Positions 2,577 through 58,314 of a stretch of 64,000 nt of DNA are shown piece after piece. Position 1 is the stretch's first letter, and every line of letters begins with the position of its first letter. The position numbers and the translations under genes are program-made. Source of the stretch: an uncultured Opitutia bacterium (GTDB taxonomy: Bacteria; Verrucomicrobiota; Verrucomicrobiia; Opitutales; Puniceicoccaceae); NCBI GenBank assembly GCA_913056175.1, contig CAJXLM010000003.1:1-64000 (forward strand). The letters are read 5' to 3'. A model generated the notes under the pieces. It did not search any database and had not been told where the DNA came from. It worked only from the letters and a program-made list of their open reading frames with translations.

Positions 2577-4073
2577 ATGGCGCCGGAAAAGTACATTCTT
2601 TCGCTCGACCAGGGAACCACCAGTTCCCGGGCCATCCTTTATGATCAGGAAGCGCGGGTTGTCAGCTCCGCCCAGCGCGAATTCCCGCAGTACTATCCCG
2701 AGACCGGTTGGGTCGAGCACGACCCCGTAGAGATCTGGTCCTCGCAGAGCGCGGTGACAGCGGAGGCGATGAGCCGGGCCGGCATCGACGCCGACCAAAT
2801 CGCCGGGGTCGGCATCTGCAACCAGCGGGAGACGGTGGTCGTCTGGGAGAAGGCCACCGGCTATCCCGTCCACCGTGCCATTGTCTGGCAGGACCGGCGC
2901 ACCGCCCAGCTCTGCCGCGAGCTCGCCGCGGACGGGCTGGAGCGTATCTTTGCCGAGAAGACCGGACTCCGGCTGGATCCCTATTTCTCGGGAACGAAGC
3001 TCACCTGGCTCCTCGACCATGTCGATGGCCTCCGGGAGCGTGCCGAGCGGGGGGAGGTACTCTTCGGGACGATCGACAGCTGGTTGTTGTGGCGACTGAC
3101 CGAGGGAGTCGTGCACAGCACGGACGTCTCCAACGCCTCGCGCACCCTCCTCTTCAACCTGCACACGCAGGATTGGGACGACGAACTCCTCGCCCTCCTG
3201 CGCATTCCCCGGGCGATGCTCCCTCGTGTGGCCGGCAACAGCGAGGTCTACGGCGAGGTCACCAGCAACCACTTTCCCTCCGGCGTACCCATTGCGGGAT
3301 CCGCCGGGGACCAGCACGCCGCCCTTTTTGGCCAGAATTGCCTGCGCCCCGGCCTCGCCAAGAACACCTACGGGACCGGTTGCTTCCTCCTCATGAATGT
3401 GGGGGCGGAGCCCATTCCCTCGCAGCACAACCTCCTCTCCACCGTCGCCTGGCGCATCGGCGACCACACCGAGTACGCATTGGAGGGCTCGATCTTCATT
3501 GCCGGTGCGGTCGTGCAGTGGCTCCGCGATGAGCTGCAGATCATCCGGACGGCGGAGGAGTGCAGCGAGCTGGCGGCGACCACGGACAACGGCGGGGTCT
3601 ACCTCGTCCCCGCATTCGTGGGCATGGGCGCGCCCCACTGGGATCCCTACGCGCGCGGGTCGATCCAAGGCCTGACCCGCGGGGCCAACCGGGCGCATCT
3701 CTGCCGTGCGGCCATTGAGTCGATCGCCTTCCAGAGCGTCGACCTCAGCCGAAGCATGCGAGCGGATTCCGGCATGGAAATCGAGGAACTCCGCGTCGAC
3801 GGCGGAGCGGCGGCCAGTGACCCCCTCCTCCAGTTCCAGGCGGACCTCCTCCGGGTGCCGGTGGCCCGACCCCGCAACATCGAGACCACCGCCCTCGGGG
3901 CGGCCTTTCTCGCCGGCCTTGGCGTCGGCTTCTGGAAGGACCGGGACTCCCTCTCCTCCATCTGGGAGCTGGACCGCACCTTCGAACCGCAGTTACCGGA
4001 GGCGGACGTGGCCCAGCTCCGGCACAACTGGGACCGAGCCGTTGAGCGCTCGAAACACTGGGCCGACGAATAA
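2577..4073 (+). CDS. glpK: Glycerol kinase
   Basis: Phosphorylates glycerol with ATP to sn-glycerol 3-phosphate in the cytoplasm. The 498 residues match the usual length. FGGY-family signatures in order: the phosphate-binding loop DQGTTSSR (11-18), NQRET (82-86), WQDRRT (104-109), DPYFSGTK (134-141) and [13 protein letters not shown] with the catalytic Asp at 245. These are the residues that separate GlpK from other FGGY kinases. The chosen ATG begins [13 protein letters not shown], close to the canonical N-terminus; the frame is open far upstream without homology. glpD starts 8 nt after its stop, so the two form an operon. No glpF-type facilitator is in the window. Confidence 0.97.
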
Positions 4074-4081
4074 CCCCCACC

Positions 4082-5740
4082 ATGTCCGACCCATCTCCAG
4101 CCAACCCGCCCGCTCCTCCCCCGGAAATGCACCGGACGCACCATCTCCATCGCGCCCGGGAGGAGGCCGGCGGGTTCGATGTCATTGTCGTGGGCGGTGG
4201 CGCCACCGGCCTCGGTGCCGCCGTGGACGCGGCCACCCGCGGCTACCGCACCCTCCTCATCGAGCAGGAGGACTTTGCCAAGGGCACCTCGAGCCGATCG
4301 ACGAAACTCGTCCACGGAGGGGTGCGCTACCTCAAGCAGATGAACATCAGCCTCGTCCTCGAGGCCCTGCACGAGCGCGGGCTCCTCGCCCGCAACGCCC
4401 GGCACCTCGCCCACAGCCAGGATTTCGTGATCCCCTCGTACACCCAGTTCAACCGAGGTTTCTACGGGATCGGGCTGAAAGTCTACGACAAGCTCGCCGG
4501 CAAGCTCGGCCTGAACCCTTCGAAGATTCTCAGCCGGGCCCGCACCCTGCGGATGCTGCCGAACCTCGAGCCCGGCCACCTTGTCGGCGGCGTTCTCTAC
4601 CAGGACGGCCAGTTCGACGACAGCCGTCTCGCGATCAACCTTGCGCAGACCGCCGTCCGCGAAGGGGCCTGCGTACTCAACTACACCCGTTGCCGCGGAT
4701 TCGAAAAGGAGAACGGAAAGATTGTCGGGGTCGAGCTGGAGGACCGGATCGGTGGGGAGAACTTCGTCGTGAAGGGAAAGGCCGTGATCAACGCCACCGG
4801 GATCTTCGTGGACCAGCTTCGCCACGCCGACGAGGCATCCGCGGAGAAGAGGGTAACCGTGAGCCAGGGGATCCACCTCGTCCTTCCGCGGAAGTTCCTG
4901 CCCGGCGAAGCCGCGATCATGGTGCCAAAGACGGCGGACGGGCGAGTGCTTTTCGGGGTGCCCTGGCACGACCGGGTCATTTTCGGGACTACGGACACCC
5001 CGCGCACGGAGGCCCAGCTCGAGCCGCGCGCCCTCCACGAGGAGCGGGACTTCGTCCTCGAGCACGCGACCAAGTATCTCGAGAAGGATCCCAGCGAGTC
5101 GGACATCCTCAGCGTCTACGCCGGCCTCCGGCCGCTCGTGAGCGCTGGCTCCGGCGCCAAGACTTCCTCGCTTTCCCGGGACCACACCATCCTCGTTTCC
5201 GACAGCGGGCTCATCTCGATCACCGGCGGGAAGTGGACCACCTACCGGAAGATGGCGGTCGACGTCGTGGACAAGGCCGCGGCAACGGCAAACCTTCCCA
5301 CCAAGGAGAGCGGCACCGAGCACCTCGCCATCCACGGTTCGGCGGAACATCTCCCCACCCCCACCGGGACCGGGGACACCATGGAGGTGTACGGAACGGA
5401 TGCCTCCGGTATCAAGGCCCTCGAGGCGGAGCGACCCGAGCTGGCCAAGCCACTCCACGACCGCCTCCCCTACCGGAGCTCCGAAGTCATCTGGCACGCC
5501 CGCCACGAGATGGCCCAGACCGTCGAGGATGTTCTGGCGCGACGCACCCGGGCCCTCCTCCTCGACGCCCGGGCCGCAGCGGAAGCCGCGGACACCGTGG
5601 CCGACCTCCTCGCCCATGAGCTACAGCGCGACGAGAGCTGGGCGAAACAGAGCGCGGAACACTTCCGGGAGATCGCCGCCGGCTACGATTACGCCAATCC
5701 GGCCTCCACGGCGCACGAGACGGTCGGGAAGGTCGCCTGA
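4082..5740 (+). CDS. glpD: Aerobic-type FAD-dependent glycerol-3-phosphate dehydrogenase
   Basis: Oxidises glycerol 3-phosphate to dihydroxyacetone phosphate, passing electrons via FAD to the quinone pool; a peripheral inner-membrane enzyme. The 552-residue length and order fit GlpD: FAD-binding GGGATG near residues 38-43, then the family stretches GTSSRSTKLVHGGVRYL and SITGGKWTTYRKMA, and a C-terminal helical domain. The N-terminus carries a proline- and histidine-rich extension of about 30 residues; Met16 is an alternative start. It lies directly behind glpK and with it completes glycerol entry into glycolysis. Confidence 0.96.
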   Translation: MSDPSPANPPAPPPEMHRTHHLHRAREEAGGFDVIVVGGGATGLGAAVDAATRGYRTLLIEQEDFAKGTSSRSTKLVHGGVRYLKQMNISLVLEALHERGLLARNARHLAHSQDFVIPSYTQFNRGFYGIGLKVYDKLAGKLGLNPSKILSRARTLRMLPNLEPGHLVGGVLYQDGQFDDSRLAINLAQTAVREGACVLNYTRCRGFEKENGKIVGVELEDRIGGENFVVKGKAVINATGIFVDQLRHADEASAEKRVTVSQGIHLVLPRKFLPGEAAIMVPKTADGRVLFGVPWHDRVIFGTTDTPRTEAQLEPRALHEERDFVLEHATKYLEKDPSESDILSVYAGLRPLVSAGSGAKTSSLSRDHTILVSDSGLISITGGKWTTYRKMAVDVVDKAAATANLPTKESGTEHLAIHGSAEHLPTPTGTGDTMEVYGTDASGIKALEAERPELAKPLHDRLPYRSSEVIWHARHEMAQTVEDVLARRTRALLLDARAAAEAADTVADLLAHELQRDESWAKQSAEHFREIAAGYDYANPASTAHETVGKVA

Positions 5741-50195: not shown

Positions 50196-51194
50196 CTAGG
50201 CTGGTAGGCCCGGGGCGGGCCCGGTGGCGACCAGGCAGGTTTCCCCTTGCCAGGTGCGGGCGAGGCGGCGGGCGGCGAGCTGGGCGCGGACGCCACTGCA
50301 GCAGCCGATCACCGCGCGCTGGCCGGGGGCGGGGAGGGGTCCGTGCGGTCCGACTTCCTCCCAGGGAATCCGAACCGCCTGCGGGGCGAGGGCGGGTCCC
50401 TCCTGCGGCCCGCGCACATCGAGCACGAAATCCTCCTCGCGGATCTCGGCGGGCCCGAGGAAGCAGAGCCGCGCCGCCCCCTCCGGTTCCGGGGCCCGGT
50501 CAAAGCGAAATCCCCCGAACCGCCAGCCCGGAGCTTCCACGGTGACCAGTTGGCCCAGCGGGGAGGGTTCGAGGCCGGCGAGAATGCCGAGGGTCATTTG
50601 TGCCTGCAGGTTGCCGAGCAGGCCGACCACCGGGCCGAGCACGCCCTCGCTGGCGCAGCTCCCCGCGCGTACGGGCAGGTCGGGAAAGACCGCGTGCAGG
50701 GAGGGTGCCGCCCCGCAGAACGCACCGGCATAACCGGAGAGTCCGGTCACGGAGGCGCTCACCAAGGGTACGCCCTGCCCGCGCCCGTAGTCGGAGAGGG
50801 AATAGCTCACCGAGAAGCGATCGGCGCAATCGAGGACGAGGTCGTGCCCGTCGAGCTCCGCGCCGAGCCCGTCCGGCTCGAGAAAGCGGGTCCGGGCCAC
50901 CAGCTCCACCTCCGGGTTCAATGCGGACAGCCGCTCCACGGCCACCTCCGCCTTCAGCCGTCCGGCATCCTCTTCCCGGAAGAGCACCTGTCGGTGAAGG
51001 TTCGTCCGGTCCACGCGGTCCCCGTCGAACAGGGTCAGCCGCCCGATTCCCGCCCCGACCAGGGCGGGGGCGGCCGTCGCGGCAAGGCCGCCCGCGCCCA
51101 CCACCGCCACCCGGGCGGCGCGCACCGCGTGCTGCCCGCGCTCTCCGAAAGCGGGCACGGCGATCTGCCGGGCGTAGCGATCCTCCCCGCTCAC
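50196..51194 (-). CDS. thiF: ThiF/MoeB-family adenylyltransferase with C-terminal rhodanese-like domain
   Basis: Activates the C-terminal glycine of ThiS by adenylation so that it can receive sulfur. N-terminal ThiF fold: RYARQIAVPAFGERGQ, VVGAGGLAATAAPAL, the DGDRVDRTNLHRQ motif with the adenylation residues, and DCADRFSVSY. From about residue 265 a rhodanese-like domain follows (FVLDVRGPQEGP, with a CCSGVRAQLAA loop). 332 residues from GTG 51194, overlapping thiE by GTGA. Last gene of the operon. Confidence 0.88.
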   Translation of the reverse strand: MSGEDRYARQIAVPAFGERGQHAVRAARVAVVGAGGLAATAAPALVGAGIGRLTLFDGDRVDRTNLHRQVLFREEDAGRLKAEVAVERLSALNPEVELVARTRFLEPDGLGAELDGHDLVLDCADRFSVSYSLSDYGRGQGVPLVSASVTGLSGYAGAFCGAAPSLHAVFPDLPVRAGSCASEGVLGPVVGLLGNLQAQMTLGILAGLEPSPLGQLVTVEAPGWRFGGFRFDRAPEPEGAARLCFLGPAEIREEDFVLDVRGPQEGPALAPQAVRIPWEEVGPHGPLPAPGQRAVIGCCSGVRAQLAARRLARTWQGETCLVATGPAPGLPA

Positions 51195-51787
51195 CGGGTT
51201 GCCTCCAGCCACTCTCGCACCCGGGCCGGAGGGTCCGCGTGCAGGGTCACGTCGGTGACCACCGCCAACGCGTCCGCCCCGGCGGCGAGGACCTCGGCCG
51301 CGCGCTCGACGGTGAGCCCTCCAATGGCCACCAGGGGCAGGCGGCCGATCCGCCGCTTCCACGCGGTGATCCGCTCCGTTCCCTGCGGTGCCCACGGCAT
51401 GACCTTGAGGCGCGTGGGGTAGATCGGGCCGAGGGCCACGTAGTCCGGTCCGGCGGCGAGCGCGGTTTCCAGCTCGGCCTCGTCGTGGGTGCTCACTCCC
51501 AACTGCACCCCGGATCGCCGGAGGGCCTCCCGGTCGGCGGCGGCGAGGTCCTCCTGGCCGAGGTGGACATAGCCGACTCCCTCGGCGAGGGCTTCCTCCC
51601 AGTGGTCATTGACCACCAGCCGGGCCCCCGCCCCTTCGCAGAGGCGCCGGGCCTCCCGGATTTCCCGGCGGAGCTCGGCACCCTCGAGCTCCTTGTTGCG
51701 CAGCTGGACGAAGCGGAGGCCCGCGGGGAGGAGCTGCCGCAGCCAGCCGGCATCCTCGAGGATCGGATAGAAGCGGTCGGGGATCAT
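51191..51787 (-). CDS. thiE: Thiamine-phosphate synthase
   Basis: Joins HMP pyrophosphate and thiazole phosphate to thiamine phosphate. A compact 198-residue TIM barrel with [54 protein letters not shown] and [14 protein letters not shown], the family's substrate-binding loops. The ATG at 51787 overlaps the thiG stop (ATGA). The stretch upstream in frame belongs to thiG's shadow. Confidence 0.93.
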
Positions 51788-52557
51788 GGGAGGAAGGCCT
51801 GCCCGATCACCGGGGTCGAAGGCGCGGCCATGTCGCGGGGCTCCATGGGGTCGGCAGCGCGGCCGAGGCGACCCGCCTCGAGGGCCCGGGCCATCGCCTC
51901 GGCCATCGCGGGGGGGTCGCCGGCCCGCGCGACGGCGGTGTTCAGGAGCACCGCGTCGTAGCCGAGTTCCATGGCCCGCAGGGCGTGCGAGGGCAGTCCG
52001 ATCCCGGCATCCACCACCAAGGGGATCTCCGGAAAACGGGCGCGCAGGGTGCGGAGGGCGTACTCGTTGGCCAGCCCGAGTCCGGACCCGATCGGGGATC
52101 CCCACGGCATGAGCACCTCGCACCCCGCTGCCACCAGCCGATCCGCGAGGACGAGGTCCTCGGTGGTGTAGGGGAACACCTGGAATCCCTGCCGACTCAG
52201 CTCGCCCGCTGCCTCCACCAGCCCGAAGGGATCCGGCTGGAGGGTATCCGTGTCCCCGATCACCTCCAGCTTGACCCAGGGGGTGTCAAAGAGTTCGCGG
52301 GCCATTGCCGCGGTGGTGATCGCTTCCTTCGCCGAGTGGCAGCCCGCCGTGTTCGGGAGCACCCTGACCCCCAGCCCGCGGATCAAGCGCCAGAAGTCCT
52401 CCCCCGCCCGGCTTCCCCCGGCCTCCCGGCGCACGGAGACAGTGGCCACCCCGGCCCCGGAGCGGCGGAAGGACTCGGCGAGAACCGCCGGGGAGGGGTA
52501 CTGCGCCGTCCCCAGGAGCAGCGGCGAGTCGATGGCGGACCCGTAAAAAGTCGGCAC
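51784..52557 (-). CDS. thiG: Thiazole synthase
   Basis: Builds the thiazole phosphate ring from deoxyxylulose 5-phosphate, dehydroglycine and ThiS-thiocarboxylate. A 257-residue TIM barrel; the Schiff-base lysine is Lys97 in [39 protein letters not shown] and [12 protein letters not shown] are the canonical loops. It lies 3 nt behind thiS. Confidence 0.96.
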
Positions 52558-52560
52558 GGC

Positions 52561-52758
52561 CTATCCTCCCTGCTGGGGGCTGACCACCTCGAGACGGTCC
52601 CCGGGGTGGACGGAAGTGACCTCCCGCTGGGCGGCCGGTACGAACTCCCCGTTCAGGGCGGTGGCGACCGCCTGGTCGGCGTAGCCCAACTCGTCCAGGA
52701 TGGCCGAGAGGGCGCTCTTTTGCACTTCGCGGGTCTCCCCGTTCACGGTGATGGTCAT
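52561..52758 (-). CDS. thiS: Sulfur-carrier protein ThiS
   Basis: A 65-residue ubiquitin-fold sulfur carrier ending in Gly-Gly, the site of adenylation by ThiF and thiocarboxylation. It reads MTITVNGETREV at the start, VATALNGEFVP in the middle and GDRLEVVSPQQGG at the end. The ATG at 52758 overlaps the thiO stop (ATGA). Confidence 0.95.
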   Translation of the reverse strand: MTITVNGETREVQKSALSAILDELGYADQAVATALNGEFVPAAQREVTSVHPGDRLEVVSPQQGG

Positions 52759-53753
52759 GGTGTGGCGATCTCCTCTTCGTGGCTGGCTAGCATCTCCGCC
52801 GCCTGCCGGGCGAGGGACGGGGCGAGGAGGAAGCCGTGCCGGTACAGTCCGTTGAGAAAAAGGGTCCGGCCTTCCCGGCGGACCTTCGGGAGGTGATCGG
52901 GGAAGGCGGGGCGGGCGTCCGCCCCGACCTCGAGCAACTCCCCCTCGCCGAAGGAGGGATGCAGGGCGAAGGCGGCGCTGAGGAGCTCGAGAACCGACCG
53001 CACCGTCGCCCGGTTTCGTTCCCCCGATTCGATGGAGGTGGCTCCGAGCATGTAGACGCCCCCGCCCCGGGGGACGATGTAGAGCGGGATGCGCGGGTGG
53101 AGAAGCCGGACGGTCCGGCGCAGCCGGACTTCCGGGCATCGCAGGACGACCATCTCGCCTTTCACCCCGCGGAGGTCCTCCAGCCGGTCGCGCGCGGCGA
53201 GCCCCCGGCAGTCGAGGGTCCAGCCCGGGCCGGGTTCGCCGTGCCGCCGCTCGATCGTCACTCCCCGGGCCGCCAGCCCCTCCACGAGCTGCGCCAACGC
53301 CCCCCGCGGGTCGAGGTGGGCTTCCTCCGGAAAAAACAGGCCTCGGGAGAAACGGCCGGCGAGGTCGGGCTCCAGGCTGCCGATCTGTTCGGCCCCGACG
53401 GTCTCATGAGCCCGGGTGCGGCGGGCAAAGCGGTCCAGTTCGCGTTGGTCGCGGCCGAGGGCGACCACCAGGGAGCCCTCGCGGGTTACGCAGTCCACCT
53501 GCCGCTCCCACCAGTCCGCCGCCTCCTCACCGAGACGCACGACCGGTTCCTCCGCGGTCTCTCCCTCGCACCACGGGGCGAGCATGCCACCGGCCCACCA
53601 CGAGCAACCGTGCTCCCCGGGTGGACCCGCCGGATCGAGCAGGCGGACCCGCCAGCCGCGGTCGACCAGTTCGGTGGCCGCGCACAGGCCGGCCACGCCT
53701 GCTCCCAGGATGGTGAGCGGCTCGTCGCGGGCGGGACTCGGTCTTTCCTCCAT
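52755..53753 (-). CDS. thiO: Glycine oxidase ThiO
   Basis: FAD enzyme that oxidises glycine to the imine used for the thiazole ring, the aerobic alternative to ThiH. 332 residues of the DAO family: ILGAGVAGLCAATELVDRGW at the N-terminus, GCSWWAGGMLAPWCEGE, and VYMLGATSIES near the end. First gene of thiO-S-G-E-F behind a TPP riboswitch. No Shine-Dalgarno lies before the ATG; instead GGAGGAAAG follows it, opposite a CCTCCTC in the leader, which may form the riboswitch's translational off-state. Confidence 0.92.
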   Translation of the reverse strand: MEERPSPARDEPLTILGAGVAGLCAATELVDRGWRVRLLDPAGPPGEHGCSWWAGGMLAPWCEGETAEEPVVRLGEEAADWWERQVDCVTREGSLVVALGRDQRELDRFARRTRAHETVGAEQIGSLEPDLAGRFSRGLFFPEEAHLDPRGALAQLVEGLAARGVTIERRHGEPGPGWTLDCRGLAARDRLEDLRGVKGEMVVLRCPEVRLRRTVRLLHPRIPLYIVPRGGGVYMLGATSIESGERNRATVRSVLELLSAAFALHPSFGEGELLEVGADARPAFPDHLPKVRREGRTLFLNGLYRHGFLLAPSLARQAAEMLASHEEEIATP

Positions 53754-53794
53754 GGCTCTCGGCGGGTCGCCGGGGGGGGAGAGGAGGAGTGCGA

Positions 53795-53883
53795 CCCCTT
53801 CCCTCCGCCGGCATCACCCGGGTCAGGTTCGATGGGTTGGCGCGGGTGCGCCTCTCAGCCCCGCAAGGGGCACCCCAAGGATA
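53795..53883 (-). promoter_or_regulatory. TPP riboswitch (THI element) of the thiO-S-G-E-F operon
   Basis: On the minus strand the conserved THI-element blocks occur in order: GGGGTGCC, GGGCTGAGAGG, the stem around CGCACCCGCG, CGAACCTGACCCGGGT, GATGCCGGCGGAGGGAA. The outer stem is CCTT/AAGG. It lies 41 nt before the thiO ATG. No T-tract terminator follows, so control is more likely translational. Confidence 0.95.
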
Positions 53884-53994
53884 GGTCGCAGCAAACCCAC
53901 GGTCCGCCCCTGGGTCAAGCCCGGCGCCCCCGGTGCGGAAAGGGGCCGGGGATTCGGGCTTGCCCGCGGGGCCTTCCTCCTCCCATTCTCTGCA

Positions 53995-54088
53995 GTTCTG
54001 CCACGGGGAGTGCGGGCGACCGCACTGAGAAATCGCCTGACCGGGCGATGACCCGCGAACCTGATCTGGATCATGCCAGCGAAGGAAC
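53995..54088 (+). promoter_or_regulatory. TPP riboswitch (THI element) upstream of the sodium:solute symporter gene
   Basis: On the plus strand the element reads CACGGGGAGTGC, GCACTGAGA, GACCCGCGAACCTGATCTGG, ATCATGCCAGCGAAGGAAC in order, with the outer stem GTTC/GAAC. The start codon of the symporter gene follows about 107 nt later with no other gene between. It is oriented away from the thiO riboswitch, with about 110 nt between the two. Confidence 0.95.
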
Positions 54089-54195
54089 CGGCAGGGTGAA
54101 GGCGGCCGCGTGGCGCGCCTCTCCCCCCGGCCTCGCGGGGATTCCGGACTGGTTCGGGCAGTTGCGTCCGACCTGTATCCCTTCCCCGCAAGCCC

Positions 54196-55665
54196 ATGAT
54201 CTCCCTGCCTCTCCTCCTGATCCTCCTCCTCACCGCGGCGGTCTTCCTCGGCATCGGCCTGGTGGCGGCCCGCCAGCAGCTCGGCCTCGAGGACTACCTG
54301 ACCGGCGGTCGCCGGGGTGGACCCGGCCTCGCCTTCGCCACGGTCACGGCCACCACGGCCGGTGCCTGGATCCTCCTCAGTCCCCCGGAAGCGGCGACCT
54401 GGGCCGGGGTGGCCGGACTCGCCGGGTACGCGGTCGGGCAGGCCGCCCCGCTGGTGGCCTTCTCGGTGATCGGCCCGCGGATGCGCCGCCTCATGCCCCA
54501 CGGCCACAACCTCACCGAGTACGCCCGGGTCCGCTTCGGGGCCGGCATGCTCCGCTTCACCGTGGGCATGATCCTTTTCTACATGTTCGTGGCGCTGACC
54601 GCGGAGCTGACCGGGGTGGCCCTCGCCTTCCAGTTGGTCGCGGACCTGCCCCCGCTGCTCACCGCCGTCGTGGTGGCGGGAGCGGTCGTCGCCTACACGA
54701 GCTGGGGAGGGCTGCGGGCCTCCGTGTGGACCGATGCCTTCCAGTGCGTGGTCATCCTGCCCCTGCTGCTGGTCCTCTTCGCGGTGACCTGGCTGCGCCT
54801 GGGCGGAATGGAGGGAGCCCTCGCCCCGGTCGCCGACGCCCGCCCGGAACTGCTCCGTTTCGATCACGGACCGGGGGTCAAGTTCGGGATCACCCTGGTC
54901 CTCGCCATCCTCTCCGCGAACCTCTTCAACCAGGGATTCTGGCAGCGGGTGTACCTCTGCCGGGACGACCGGACGGTCCGCCGCGGCTTCCTCGGGGCGG
55001 CCGTGGTCATCGTGCCGGTCATCGCGCTCGCCGGGCTTTTCGGGATCTTCGCCCTCGGCACGGGCCTCGAGGCCGGGGAGTCCTCCGTGGCCCTCTTCCG
55101 GGTCGTCCTGGAGGTCCTTCCTCCCTGGGCGGTCGCCCTCGTCCTCGTGCTGGGGCTCGCCCTCGTCATGAGCAGCATGGATTCCCTGCTCACCGGGATG
55201 GCCAGCGTGATTACCACCCAGCAGCACGCCCGCCGCCCGGAGCTCGGCACGGGGCAACTCCTCCGCTTCTCCCGCTGGTGGACCGCGGCCCTTGCGGTTC
55301 CCGCCGTCCTCATCGCCTCCCAGGGGTACAGCGTGCTCTACCTCTTCCTGCTCGCCGACCTCGTCGCCGCCGGCATGGTGGTGCCCCTCTTCGCCGGCCT
55401 CTACAGCCGCCACCTCCGCGGGCGGGATGCCATCGCGGCGAGCGCCGCGGGCATGGCCGTGGGTGCTCTCTTCTTCCCCCTGCCGAACTTCGATCCGTGG
55501 TTGCCCTACGTTCCCTTTGCCGGGGACTTCCTGGCGAGCTTCGCCGCAGCCCTCCTCGTCTCGACCGCGCTCACGGTCGCCCGGGCCCGCCAGCGGGGAC
55601 GCAGCCGGGCCTACGATTTCGAACGGCTCGAGCGGGAAGTGGAGGTGCTGCCCGGGCGGGGTTGA
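54196..55665 (+). CDS. SSS-family sodium:solute symporter under TPP riboswitch control; candidate thiamine or precursor transporter
   Basis: A 489-residue membrane protein of the solute:sodium symporter family with about 13 hydrophobic segments. Family features include the N-terminal DYLTGGRR, GHNLTEYARVRFG, YTSWGGLRASVWTDAFQ (the SSS signature region) and VMSSMDSLLTGMASV. Its only upstream element is a TPP riboswitch, and thiamine synthesis genes lie opposite. Predicted SSS-type thiamine-linked transporters (ThiV) are known from comparative genomics, so uptake of thiamine, HMP or a thiazole compound is a reasonable inference. Confidence 0.88.
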   Translation: MISLPLLLILLLTAAVFLGIGLVAARQQLGLEDYLTGGRRGGPGLAFATVTATTAGAWILLSPPEAATWAGVAGLAGYAVGQAAPLVAFSVIGPRMRRLMPHGHNLTEYARVRFGAGMLRFTVGMILFYMFVALTAELTGVALAFQLVADLPPLLTAVVVAGAVVAYTSWGGLRASVWTDAFQCVVILPLLLVLFAVTWLRLGGMEGALAPVADARPELLRFDHGPGVKFGITLVLAILSANLFNQGFWQRVYLCRDDRTVRRGFLGAAVVIVPVIALAGLFGIFALGTGLEAGESSVALFRVVLEVLPPWAVALVLVLGLALVMSSMDSLLTGMASVITTQQHARRPELGTGQLLRFSRWWTAALAVPAVLIASQGYSVLYLFLLADLVAAGMVVPLFAGLYSRHLRGRDAIAASAAGMAVGALFFPLPNFDPWLPYVPFAGDFLASFAAALLVSTALTVARARQRGRSRAYDFERLEREVEVLPGRG

Positions 55666-55694: not shown

Positions 55695-55955
55695 TCAGCC
55701 CTCCGGGCGAAGGCGCGCGAGGATCGTCCCCTTCCGGAAGGTGCCGCCTTCCTCCACGAGGACCTCCTCGAGGTGGCCGCCCACTGGAGACTCGACGTCG
55801 AGGGTCGCCTTGAGGACCTGGATCTCGCAGAGGGCCGTTCCCTTCCGGACCGGGGAACCGGGGCGGACAAACCAGTTGGCCAGGTAGGCCTCGTCGTCCT
55901 CCCCGGCTCCCTCCGGCCAGAAATCGGCCGAGTTCAGCTCGACCGGCTCACTCAC
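55695..55955 (-). CDS. Free-standing lipoyl (biotinyl/lipoyl attachment) domain protein
   Basis: An 86-residue protein that is a single lipoyl domain. The attachment turn reads EIQVLKATLDVESPVGG, where Lys is the likely lipoylated residue; the usual DKA is LKA. It normally forms the N-terminus of an E2 acyltransferase, but here a stop follows the domain and no E2 core or peripheral-subunit-binding domain is present. GTG start overlaps the E1 beta stop (GTGA), so it is part of that operon. Either a swinging-arm protein for an E2 elsewhere or a truncated E2. Confidence 0.82.
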   Translation of the reverse strand: MSEPVELNSADFWPEGAGEDDEAYLANWFVRPGSPVRKGTALCEIQVLKATLDVESPVGGHLEEVLVEEGGTFRKGTILARLRPEG

Positions 55956-56989
55956 GAGAGAAGGGAGCGCAAGGCGGTGGAGATGTCCGCGGTGCCGGGA
56001 ATCACCTCGTTCTCGAGGGGCCGCGCGTAGGGGATGGGCACGTCCGGGAGGGCGAGGCGGCGGACCGCCCGGAGCGAATCGAGGGCCCCCTCCGCGGTGC
56101 GGGCGATCACCTCCCCGGTCACGCCGAAGGAGCGGTAGTCCTCGTCCACGACGAGCAACCGTCCGGTCTTGCGGACCGACTCCACGACGGTCGCCGAATC
56201 GAGGGGGACGAGCGAGCGCAGGTCGATGACCTCGACCTCCCCGGCTCCCGCCGAACGGAGTTCCTCCGCGGCATCGAGGGCGCGCTGCACGTGGATCCCG
56301 AGGGTCACCACGGTGGCATCGCCCCCCTCCCGGACGACCGCCGCCTTGCCGAAGGGAATCGTGTAGTCCTCCTCCGGCACCGCCGTCTTCGGCCCGGGCG
56401 GCGACGGCATCCAGCCGAGGCCCATGAGGCGCTTGTGGAAGAGGTAGACGACCGGGTCGTTCGAGCGGATCGCGCTGTGCATGAGCCCCTTGGCGTCGTA
56501 GGCGTTGCTCGGAACCACGACCTTCATCCCCGGCAGGTGGGCAAAGGTGCCGTAGAGGGTCTGCGAGTGCTGGCCCGCATCATTGTAGCCTCCCCCCACC
56601 CCGGCGGTGAGCACCATGGGAACGGAGACCGCTCCCCCGCTCATGTAGGTGTTCTTGGCCATGTTGTTGTAGATCTGGTCCATGGCCACGCCGAAGAAGT
56701 CGACGAACATCAACTCGGCGATCGGGCGCATGCCCGCCTGGGCCGCCCCCACCGCCGCGCCAATGTAGGCGGTCTCACTGATCGGCACGTTCATGACCCG
56801 GTCGGGGCCGAACTGGTCGAGCAGGCCCGTCGCGCTGGAGAAGATCCCGCCGTACTCGGCGACATCCTCGCCCATGAGGAAAACCTCCGGGTTCTCCCGC
56901 ATCTCGTGGGCCACCGCCTCGACGATGGCCCGGCTCATGGTGAGCTGGCGGCCCGTCGCCGCCGTGCTTGCCTCGGTTGTCGTACTCAT
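55952..56989 (-). CDS. 2-oxoacid/acetoin dehydrogenase E1 component, beta subunit
   Basis: A 345-residue transketolase-type beta subunit of a thiamine-diphosphate E1. VFLMGEDVAEYGGIF, MNVPISETAYIGAAVGAA, ELMFVDFFGVAMDQIYNNMAK and VPMVLTAGVGGGYNDAGQHSQ are family hallmarks; the conserved His of the last motif is in the active site. The sequence style is closest to acetoin dehydrogenase AcoB or branched-chain E1 beta. ATGA overlap with the alpha gene. Confidence 0.9.
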   Translation of the reverse strand: MSTTTEASTAATGRQLTMSRAIVEAVAHEMRENPEVFLMGEDVAEYGGIFSSATGLLDQFGPDRVMNVPISETAYIGAAVGAAQAGMRPIAELMFVDFFGVAMDQIYNNMAKNTYMSGGAVSVPMVLTAGVGGGYNDAGQHSQTLYGTFAHLPGMKVVVPSNAYDAKGLMHSAIRSNDPVVYLFHKRLMGLGWMPSPPGPKTAVPEEDYTIPFGKAAVVREGGDATVVTLGIHVQRALDAAEELRSAGAGEVEVIDLRSLVPLDSATVVESVRKTGRLLVVDEDYRSFGVTGEVIARTAEGALDSLRAVRRLALPDVPIPYARPLENEVIPGTADISTALRSLLS

Positions 56990-58005
56990 GACTGCACTCC
57001 TCCTGCCGTGTAGGGTTCCACCGGGTCGGTAAAGACATGTTCATAGGCCTCCTCGGGGGAGGGCTCGGGTTGCTCCTTCGCCCAGGCGATGGCTTCCTCG
57101 ACGCGCTCGGAAGAGCGGTCCCGCATCGCCTGAACGTCCTCCGCGGACACGCCGTGCCGACGCAGGGTCGCCGCCAGCCGTTCGATGGAGTCGCGCTGCT
57201 GGGCGAGCTCGGTGTCCCGGTCCGGCCGATAGGTCTCCGGATCGCCCATGAAGTGGCCCATCCGGCGGTGCACCTGGATTTCCAGGAGGGTGGGACCGTT
57301 GCCGTCTCGGGCCCGCCGCACGGCCTCCCCGGCCGCTTCGTAGACGTCGCAGGCGTCGTCCGAGTCCACCCGCACGCCCGGCAGGGCGAAGCCGCGGGCC
57401 CGCTGGGAACCGTCCTTCACGTCCGTGACCTGTTCCTTCGGCATGCTGATCGCCCAGTCGTTGTCCTCGATGACGAAGAGGACCGGAAGCCGCTGGACCG
57501 CCGCGAAGTTGAGGGACTCGAGGAATCCGCCCTGGTCGATCGCTCCCTCCCCAAGGAAGGCGACCGCCACAGCATCGGTTCCCCGCTTCTTGGCGGCGAG
57601 GGCGGCACCCACCGCGGGAGGACAACCCTGGGCAATGATCCCGGAGCAGGCAAAGTTCACCTCGGGATCGAAGAGGTGCATGTGGCCGCCCTTGCCCCGG
57701 CAGAGACCGGTCGACCGGCCGAAGATCTCCGCGGTCATGCGCTTGAGGTCGACGCCCTTGGCGATGGCGATGTGGTGCGGACGGTGCGGCCCGGTCACCG
57801 TGTCGTCGGGACGCAGGTGGATGCAGACGCCGGCACCGGAAGCCTCGTGGCCGGCCGCCAGGTGGAGCTCTCCGGGGATCGGGCCGGCGGAGATGTCGAA
57901 GGCTGGCTGCTTGCCCTCGAGATACTCCTGCACGAGCCGCTCCTCGTAGAGCCGCGCGGTCACCATGTTCTCGAACATGGTTCGTAGCTCGGGAATACTG
58001 ATCAT
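56986..58005 (-). CDS. 2-oxoacid/acetoin dehydrogenase E1 component, alpha subunit
   Basis: A 339-residue TPP-binding E1 alpha subunit. The TPP motif is AFLGEGAIDQGGFLESLN followed by FVIEDNDWAISM; GPHRPHHIAIAKG and RGKGGHMHLFD are further active-site loops. ATG at 58005 chosen, giving MISIPELRTMFENMVTARL, the usual start; upstream sequence in frame is alanine- and proline-rich. Oxidative decarboxylation with the beta subunit and lipoyl protein is expected; substrate (acetoin, pyruvate or a branched-chain keto acid) is unresolved. It needs thiamine, made or imported by its neighbours. Confidence 0.9.
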   Translation of the reverse strand: MISIPELRTMFENMVTARLYEERLVQEYLEGKQPAFDISAGPIPGELHLAAGHEASGAGVCIHLRPDDTVTGPHRPHHIAIAKGVDLKRMTAEIFGRSTGLCRGKGGHMHLFDPEVNFACSGIIAQGCPPAVGAALAAKKRGTDAVAVAFLGEGAIDQGGFLESLNFAAVQRLPVLFVIEDNDWAISMPKEQVTDVKDGSQRARGFALPGVRVDSDDACDVYEAAGEAVRRARDGNGPTLLEIQVHRRMGHFMGDPETYRPDRDTELAQQRDSIERLAATLRRHGVSAEDVQAMRDRSSERVEEAIAWAKEQPEPSPEEAYEHVFTDPVEPYTAGGVQS

Positions 58006-58314
58006 GATGGGAGGGGCGGGCCGCCGGCGCGCCGCTGCCGCGGAGGAAGCGGTCGGCGACGGGGGATCCCGCCGGGTTGGTTGGGGGTTGACTGGGGTGG
58101 TCGGGGTCGGGGCTCCCTCGTGCGAGGGCACCACGCCCCGGAAACAATTGCACTAAAAGGCATACAAAACTCCGCCCGCCCGTCAACCGATTCCCCGTGG
58201 CCGGGGGGACCGTTTCCCCCGCCCAGCCCGCGCCAGCCCTGTCCCAAGCCTTGCCTTGACCCCCTCCTCGCAACCGCCACTCTCGGCGCTTTCCGGCCCA
58301 CCTCCCTCTCCGCC
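58006..58314. promoter_or_regulatory. Divergent spacer between the E1 alpha gene and the 2-hydroxyacid dehydrogenase gene
   Basis: 309 bp without a gene. On the minus strand a TTGACG box is followed 16 nt later by TATGCC, a weak promoter for the E1 operon, in the only A+T-rich part of the spacer (about 58143-58170). A palindrome CCCTCG-TG-CGAGGG at 58115-58128 would form a small hairpin in the E1 leader. Nothing clear was seen towards the plus-strand gene. Confidence 0.3.

Follow-up and report, generated by a model that had tools for sequence, protein, structure and literature searches.

Here, we found that an uncultured Opitutia bacterium carries a lone sodium:solute symporter gene, thiV, behind its own TPP riboswitch aptamer, and that this unit diverges from a second TPP aptamer leading the thiazole operon thiO-S-G-E-F. 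We assign a probability of roughly 0.7 to the reading that the symporter mediates TPP-repressed, Na+-coupled import of HMP, or of a precursor converted by TenA, in an HMP auxotroph; within it, the substrate, the sodium coupling, the direction of regulation and the auxotrophy are what we infer. A thiamine-linked SSS symporter had already been proposed from the bare sequence, and the phylogenetic tree, the conservation of the riboswitch, the gene neighbourhood and the gaps in the pathway all support this proposal.

The window, i.e. the whole 64-kb stretch of DNA that we analysed, was scanned with Rfam cmscan for the TPP model RF00059 at its gathering score of 54.3 bits. The leader of the symporter gene contains an aptamer (THI element) at 53994..54105 on the plus strand (60.7 bits, E = 1.9e-9), and the leader of thiO-S-G-E-F contains one at 53782..53887 on the minus strand (71.3 bits, E = 4.9e-12); both matches span model positions 1-105, i.e. 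the full length, and exceed the gathering score, with 106 bases between them. Indeed, the sequence-only reading had described two complete THI elements lying close together on opposite strands, one ahead of thiO-S-G-E-F and the other ahead of a lone SSS gene. The covariance model bears out both elements, including the plus-strand one for which this check had been proposed, and the Pfam and NCBIfam matches agree with the gene assignments. The scan found no further TPP match in the window, and only three in the entire source genome. Moreover, the plus-strand aptamer can be aligned with six other aptamers from thiV leaders.

The divergent intergenic stretch between the two aptamers (53888..53993, 106 bases) is the expected site of both promoters; promoter and terminator scans of it gave neither a sigma-70-like nor an intrinsic-terminator-like match. 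In the symporter leader, no Shine-Dalgarno-like sequence and no terminator was recognised, and folding both leaders as single strands gave results no better than those for shuffled sequences. Thus, no expression platform can be assigned, and control by rho or at the ribosome site would be only a guess. That TPP represses expression from both leaders is presumed by analogy with known TPP riboswitches.

The symporter gene (54196..55665, plus strand; 489 aa) is the single gene behind the plus-strand aptamer, and its ATG at 54196 agrees with the gene starts of its relatives. The sole Pfam match of the product, a predicted Na+:HMP (pyrimidine) importer, is SSF (PF00474; 86.7 bits, cut-off 22.8). 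Its scores against other SSS proteins are bimodal: same-phylum proteins from three genomes (G465, G361 and G451), a Halomonas protein and haloarchaeal proteins score 205-480 bits, and all others 89 bits or less. The nearest relatives that we found are 49-52% identical, and the haloarchaeal homologues about 40% (one 35%). In a maximum-likelihood tree, the window symporter falls into a 13-row clade with 100/100 support that contains neither PutP, PanF or ActP of E. coli nor any of about 38 SSS paralogues. A firm placement among SSS proteins of characterised, non-thiamine function, which would have spoken against the original proposal, was looked for and not seen in this tree. A scan of named genomes gave one distant SSS protein, from Hydrogenedentota (L034), which lacks a TPP element and clusters with the paralogues.

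Residues common to the clade and rare outside it are E65, G77-Y78, P85, Y129, A136-E137, T139, W249 and D388. Residues A52, A55, S326 and S327 of the symporter align with A53, M56, S340 and T341 of PutP, which we take to be Na2-site residues, and this alignment makes sodium coupling plausible. The published HMP/thiamine signature consists, in SiaT numbering, of Tyr 78 in TM2, an acidic residue at 139 in TM3, and Phe 254 followed by His or a polar residue in TM6. At the corresponding region, the window symporter has Y78 (13/13 clade members), E137 (12/13) and F244-N245-Q246; the TM3 and TM6 residues align within 1-2 positions of those of SiaT, and the tyrosine about 5 positions off. From the bit scores and the tree, membership of the symporter in the published ThiV/SSSP group of the SSS family appears well supported; the tree was built without the ThiV proteins of SAR11 and Methylobacillus, and the link to SAR11 thus rests on the published description of the family together with the haloarchaeal and the thi-linked members.

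Is the association with thiamine a common feature of this clade? A TPP aptamer lies directly upstream of the gene in all seven bacterial members examined (the window, G465, G361, G451, Halomonas, G488 and G485, the last of which has a locus that ends at the contig end), and in none of the 38 loci of SSS paralogues, most of which extend only about 1.5 kb past the gene. The thiV ORF overlaps the thiO ORF in G465 and the thiD ORF in G361. No TPP aptamer was found at the haloarchaeal homologues where searched, and tenA, often as two copies in a row, adjoins five of the seven annotated ones (none is listed for the other two); one homologue also has thiD and a gene for thiamine-phosphate synthase nearby. 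The split between bacterial members with the aptamer and haloarchaeal members without it matches the published ThiV/SSSP group, which was described from Methylobacillus, SAR11 and Halobacteria and also next to thi genes (PMC4260697). The conserved links of thiV to thiO, thiD and tenA raise the likelihood that the family carries a pyrimidine.

The minus-strand aptamer leads thiO (52755..53753; glycine oxidase of the thiazole branch; Pfam DAO, TIGR02352 241.3 bits, cut-off 250.8), thiS (52561..52755; sulfur carrier; TIGR01683 63.5 bits, cut-off 37.45), thiG (51784..52557; thiazole synthase; Pfam ThiG 315.5 bits), thiE (51191..51790; thiamine phosphate synthase; NF000734 290.2 bits, cut-off 252) and thiF (50196..51206; ThiS adenylyltransferase with a C-terminal extension; Pfam ThiF 177.2 bits, TIGR02356 192.4 bits, cut-off 275), all on the minus strand. 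ThiO and ThiF score under their NCBIfam equivalog cut-offs, and neither has a better match to any other family. Beyond the symporter, the other strand encodes at 55698-58134 a free-standing 86-aa lipoyl-domain protein and the E1 alpha and E1 beta subunits of a TPP-dependent dehydrogenase; that these genes adjoin a vitamin B1 importer may be chance.

Can the bacterium make HMP itself? In the source assembly (2.61 Mb, 84 contigs, 96.5% complete) we found no match to ThiC, the enzyme that makes the pyrimidine half of thiamine, HMP, with a search that detects ThiC in 13 of 14 control genomes. Nor was thiC found in any of the three ThiV-bearing relatives from the same phylum that were tested (G465, G361, G451), while in the order at large 64 of 105 genomes of good quality carry it. 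As the genomes without thiC are drafts, 80-96% complete, and drafts can miss genes, the case for the absence of thiC is strong, not final. The source genome has ThiD and two ThiE in addition to the thiazole branch, and a ThiL-like protein on contig 8 whose match is split into two segments that both score under the family cut-off. Of the three genes that had been noted as absent here, thiC is thus missing genome-wide as far as the assembly goes, while thiD and a thiL-like gene lie elsewhere in the genome. The third TPP element, which at 51.8 bits falls narrowly short of the gathering score (with its operon at G000:C1:8754-11900, L082:1555-4934), leads an AIR-synthase-like gene, thiE2, thiD and tenA, the TenA product matching TIGR04306 with 147.2 bits (cut-off 130). 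The AIR-synthase-like protein, which is distinct from the ThiL-like protein of contig 8, has its best NCBIfam match to HypE (89.6 bits) and scores 71.9 bits against ThiL, both below cut-off.

The lack of a thiC match beside a complete thiazole branch is most simply read as HMP auxotrophy, a gap that SAR11 shares, and the bacterium seems unable to make HMP. Of the candidate substrates originally named (thiamine, HMP, thiazole or a salvage product), the missing thiC step narrows the choice to the pyrimidine side, and thiazole is unlikely given that its branch is present. A CytX-type HMP permease (Transp_cyt_pur, PF02133) had no match in the source genome. On contig 30 (L135:489-3657, G000:C30), an ABC permease and an NMT1-family binding protein lie beside an ORF that by eye resembles dihydropyrimidinase; this locus has no TPP element and is unlinked to thiV, and it could represent a second pyrimidine uptake route.

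In the mechanism that we consider most likely, when TPP is plentiful, both aptamers would bind it and expression of the thiazole operon and of the importer would be lowered together. When TPP is short, both would be expressed, and the importer, driven by the sodium gradient, would bring in HMP or a precursor for conversion by TenA. The thiazole half would be made by ThiO-S-G-F, the imported HMP phosphorylated by ThiD, and the two halves joined by ThiE, after which a ThiL-like kinase would make TPP. If this is right, the organism relies on HMP supplied by its neighbours, and this compact gene under its own switch offers a test case for what ThiV carries. The closest precedent is SAR11, which lacks thiC and for which HMP uptake was measured in whole cells, with ThiV, under a TPP riboswitch, as the best candidate transporter (PMC11452348). 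In the literature we found no assay of any isolated ThiV protein, the SAR11 evidence being from whole cells.

The symporter might instead import mainly intact thiamine, as fungal Dur31/SSSQ does, with HMP uptake as a secondary activity. In Candida, pyrithiamine sensitivity requires Dur31, an SSS protein with a TPP riboswitch (PMC5997356), and McRose et al. leave the choice between thiamine and HMP undecided (PMC4260697). However, a cell that imports thiamine would have little use for a thiazole operon, and here the thiazole branch, thiE and thiD, all redundant under intact thiamine uptake, are retained with TPP elements ahead of them. Since thiC was also not found in the source genome and ThiV-bearing SAR11 cannot use thiamine (PMC11452348), intact thiamine is less favoured, and we regard it as an unlikely main substrate. 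An unrelated substrate such as proline or pantothenate, with incidental control by TPP, is very improbable. It is true that the best generic family matches of the symporter are the SSS superfamily, PanF and PutP, and that its haloarchaeal homologues carry the annotation of proline symporters, but the scores lie far below the NCBIfam equivalog cut-offs (68.3 against 328 for PanF, 56.9 against 515.5 for PutP), the protein falls outside both in the tree, and a TPP aptamer is kept in 7/7 bacterial clade members.

On the pyrimidine side, the presence of TenA makes the breakdown products of thiamine a real alternative: the symporter would mainly import amino-HMP or formyl-amino-HMP, from which TenA makes HMP. 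The tenA gene downstream of the third TPP element, in the same operon as thiE2 and thiD, and the frequently paired tenA genes adjoining the haloarchaeal homologues point in this direction, and the transporters for these two compounds have been stated to be unclear (PMC10470507). Yet thiV goes with thiO or thiD rather than tenA in the two nearest relatives whose flanking genes could be read, and SAR11 cells transport HMP (PMC11452348), and we consider breakdown pyrimidines a rather unlikely main substrate. For the clade as a whole, we see a small but appreciable chance that ThiV proteins are importers of amino-HMP and formyl-amino-HMP that work with TenA; if true, this would identify the uptake route that is missing for breakdown pyrimidines in bacteria and haloarchaea.

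We regard the window locus as a well-supported new example of a known riboswitch-ThiV arrangement, not a surprise. E. coli PanF (pantothenate) and PutP (proline) belong to the same Pfam family and their Na2-site residues align with the window symporter, but they are only 18-23% identical to it and lie outside its clade, and neither is known to be under TPP control. With the ThiV/SSSP group, which includes the ThiV proteins of SAR11 and Methylobacillus, the window symporter shares the SSS fold family, the upstream TPP riboswitch in bacteria, the links to thi genes and to TenA, a host without thiC and homologues in Halobacteria (PMC4260697, PMC11452348). What sets thiV apart here is its position as a lone gene with an aptamer to itself, facing away from the aptamer of the thiazole operon. 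The SSSQ/Dur31 proteins of fungi and some algae are also SSS proteins, with TPP riboswitches in many species and thiamine-related transport (PMC5997356, PMC4260697); they differ in forming a eukaryotic clade, in carrying thiamine itself and in having an intronic riboswitch that acts on splicing.

How common is this solution among related bacteria? A search of 132 genomes of the order for close relatives of the symporter returned paralogues only, about 30% identical or less over the best segment, and none of their loci that were read showed a TPP element. Thus, thiV is not simply common to the whole order, and the window genome is the sole clear ThiV carrier among the genomes searched. In G005 (L067:1409-2931, G005:C3), a TPP match of only 37.7 bits overlaps the start of an SSS gene whose product is not part of the ThiV clade and does not have the clade residues, and we did not count it; it is possibly a second, independent pairing of a TPP element with an SSS gene. 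No thiC match was found in this small genome. Within 1.3 kb downstream of the same gene are three matches to Acido-Lenti-1 RNA (RF01687, 50-60 bits; L067:3279-3325, 3421-3467 and 4461-4506).

The usual TPP-linked uptake gene of the order encodes a TonB-dependent receptor of one family, directly downstream of the element in 17 of 40 TPP loci read (L087 is an example); 13 of these 17 loci are in genomes without a thiC match, including G041 from the same family as the source. In the window genome, none of the TPP elements precedes a TonB-dependent receptor gene. The omr1 receptor was reported in a survey as an Opitutales strategy (PMC12442306), which would fit the order studied here. Omr1-type receptors also serve TPP-linked uptake, but are outer-membrane proteins unrelated to the symporter. 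The window extends the pattern of riboswitch and ThiV without thiC, for which SAR11 is the best-known case, to a lineage in whose order a TonB receptor frequently lies behind a TPP riboswitch. At several further loci (L070, L071, L073, L076 and L089 among others), a different ORF of about 780-810 aa takes the place of the receptor behind the TPP element. In L068 (G009), L077 (G090) and L079 (G040), the element is followed by an ORF of about 270 aa with an N-terminus that by eye resembles ThiM (hydroxyethylthiazole kinase), and then by thiE, joined at two of the three loci by thiD; we read these as salvage operons in other genomes of the order.
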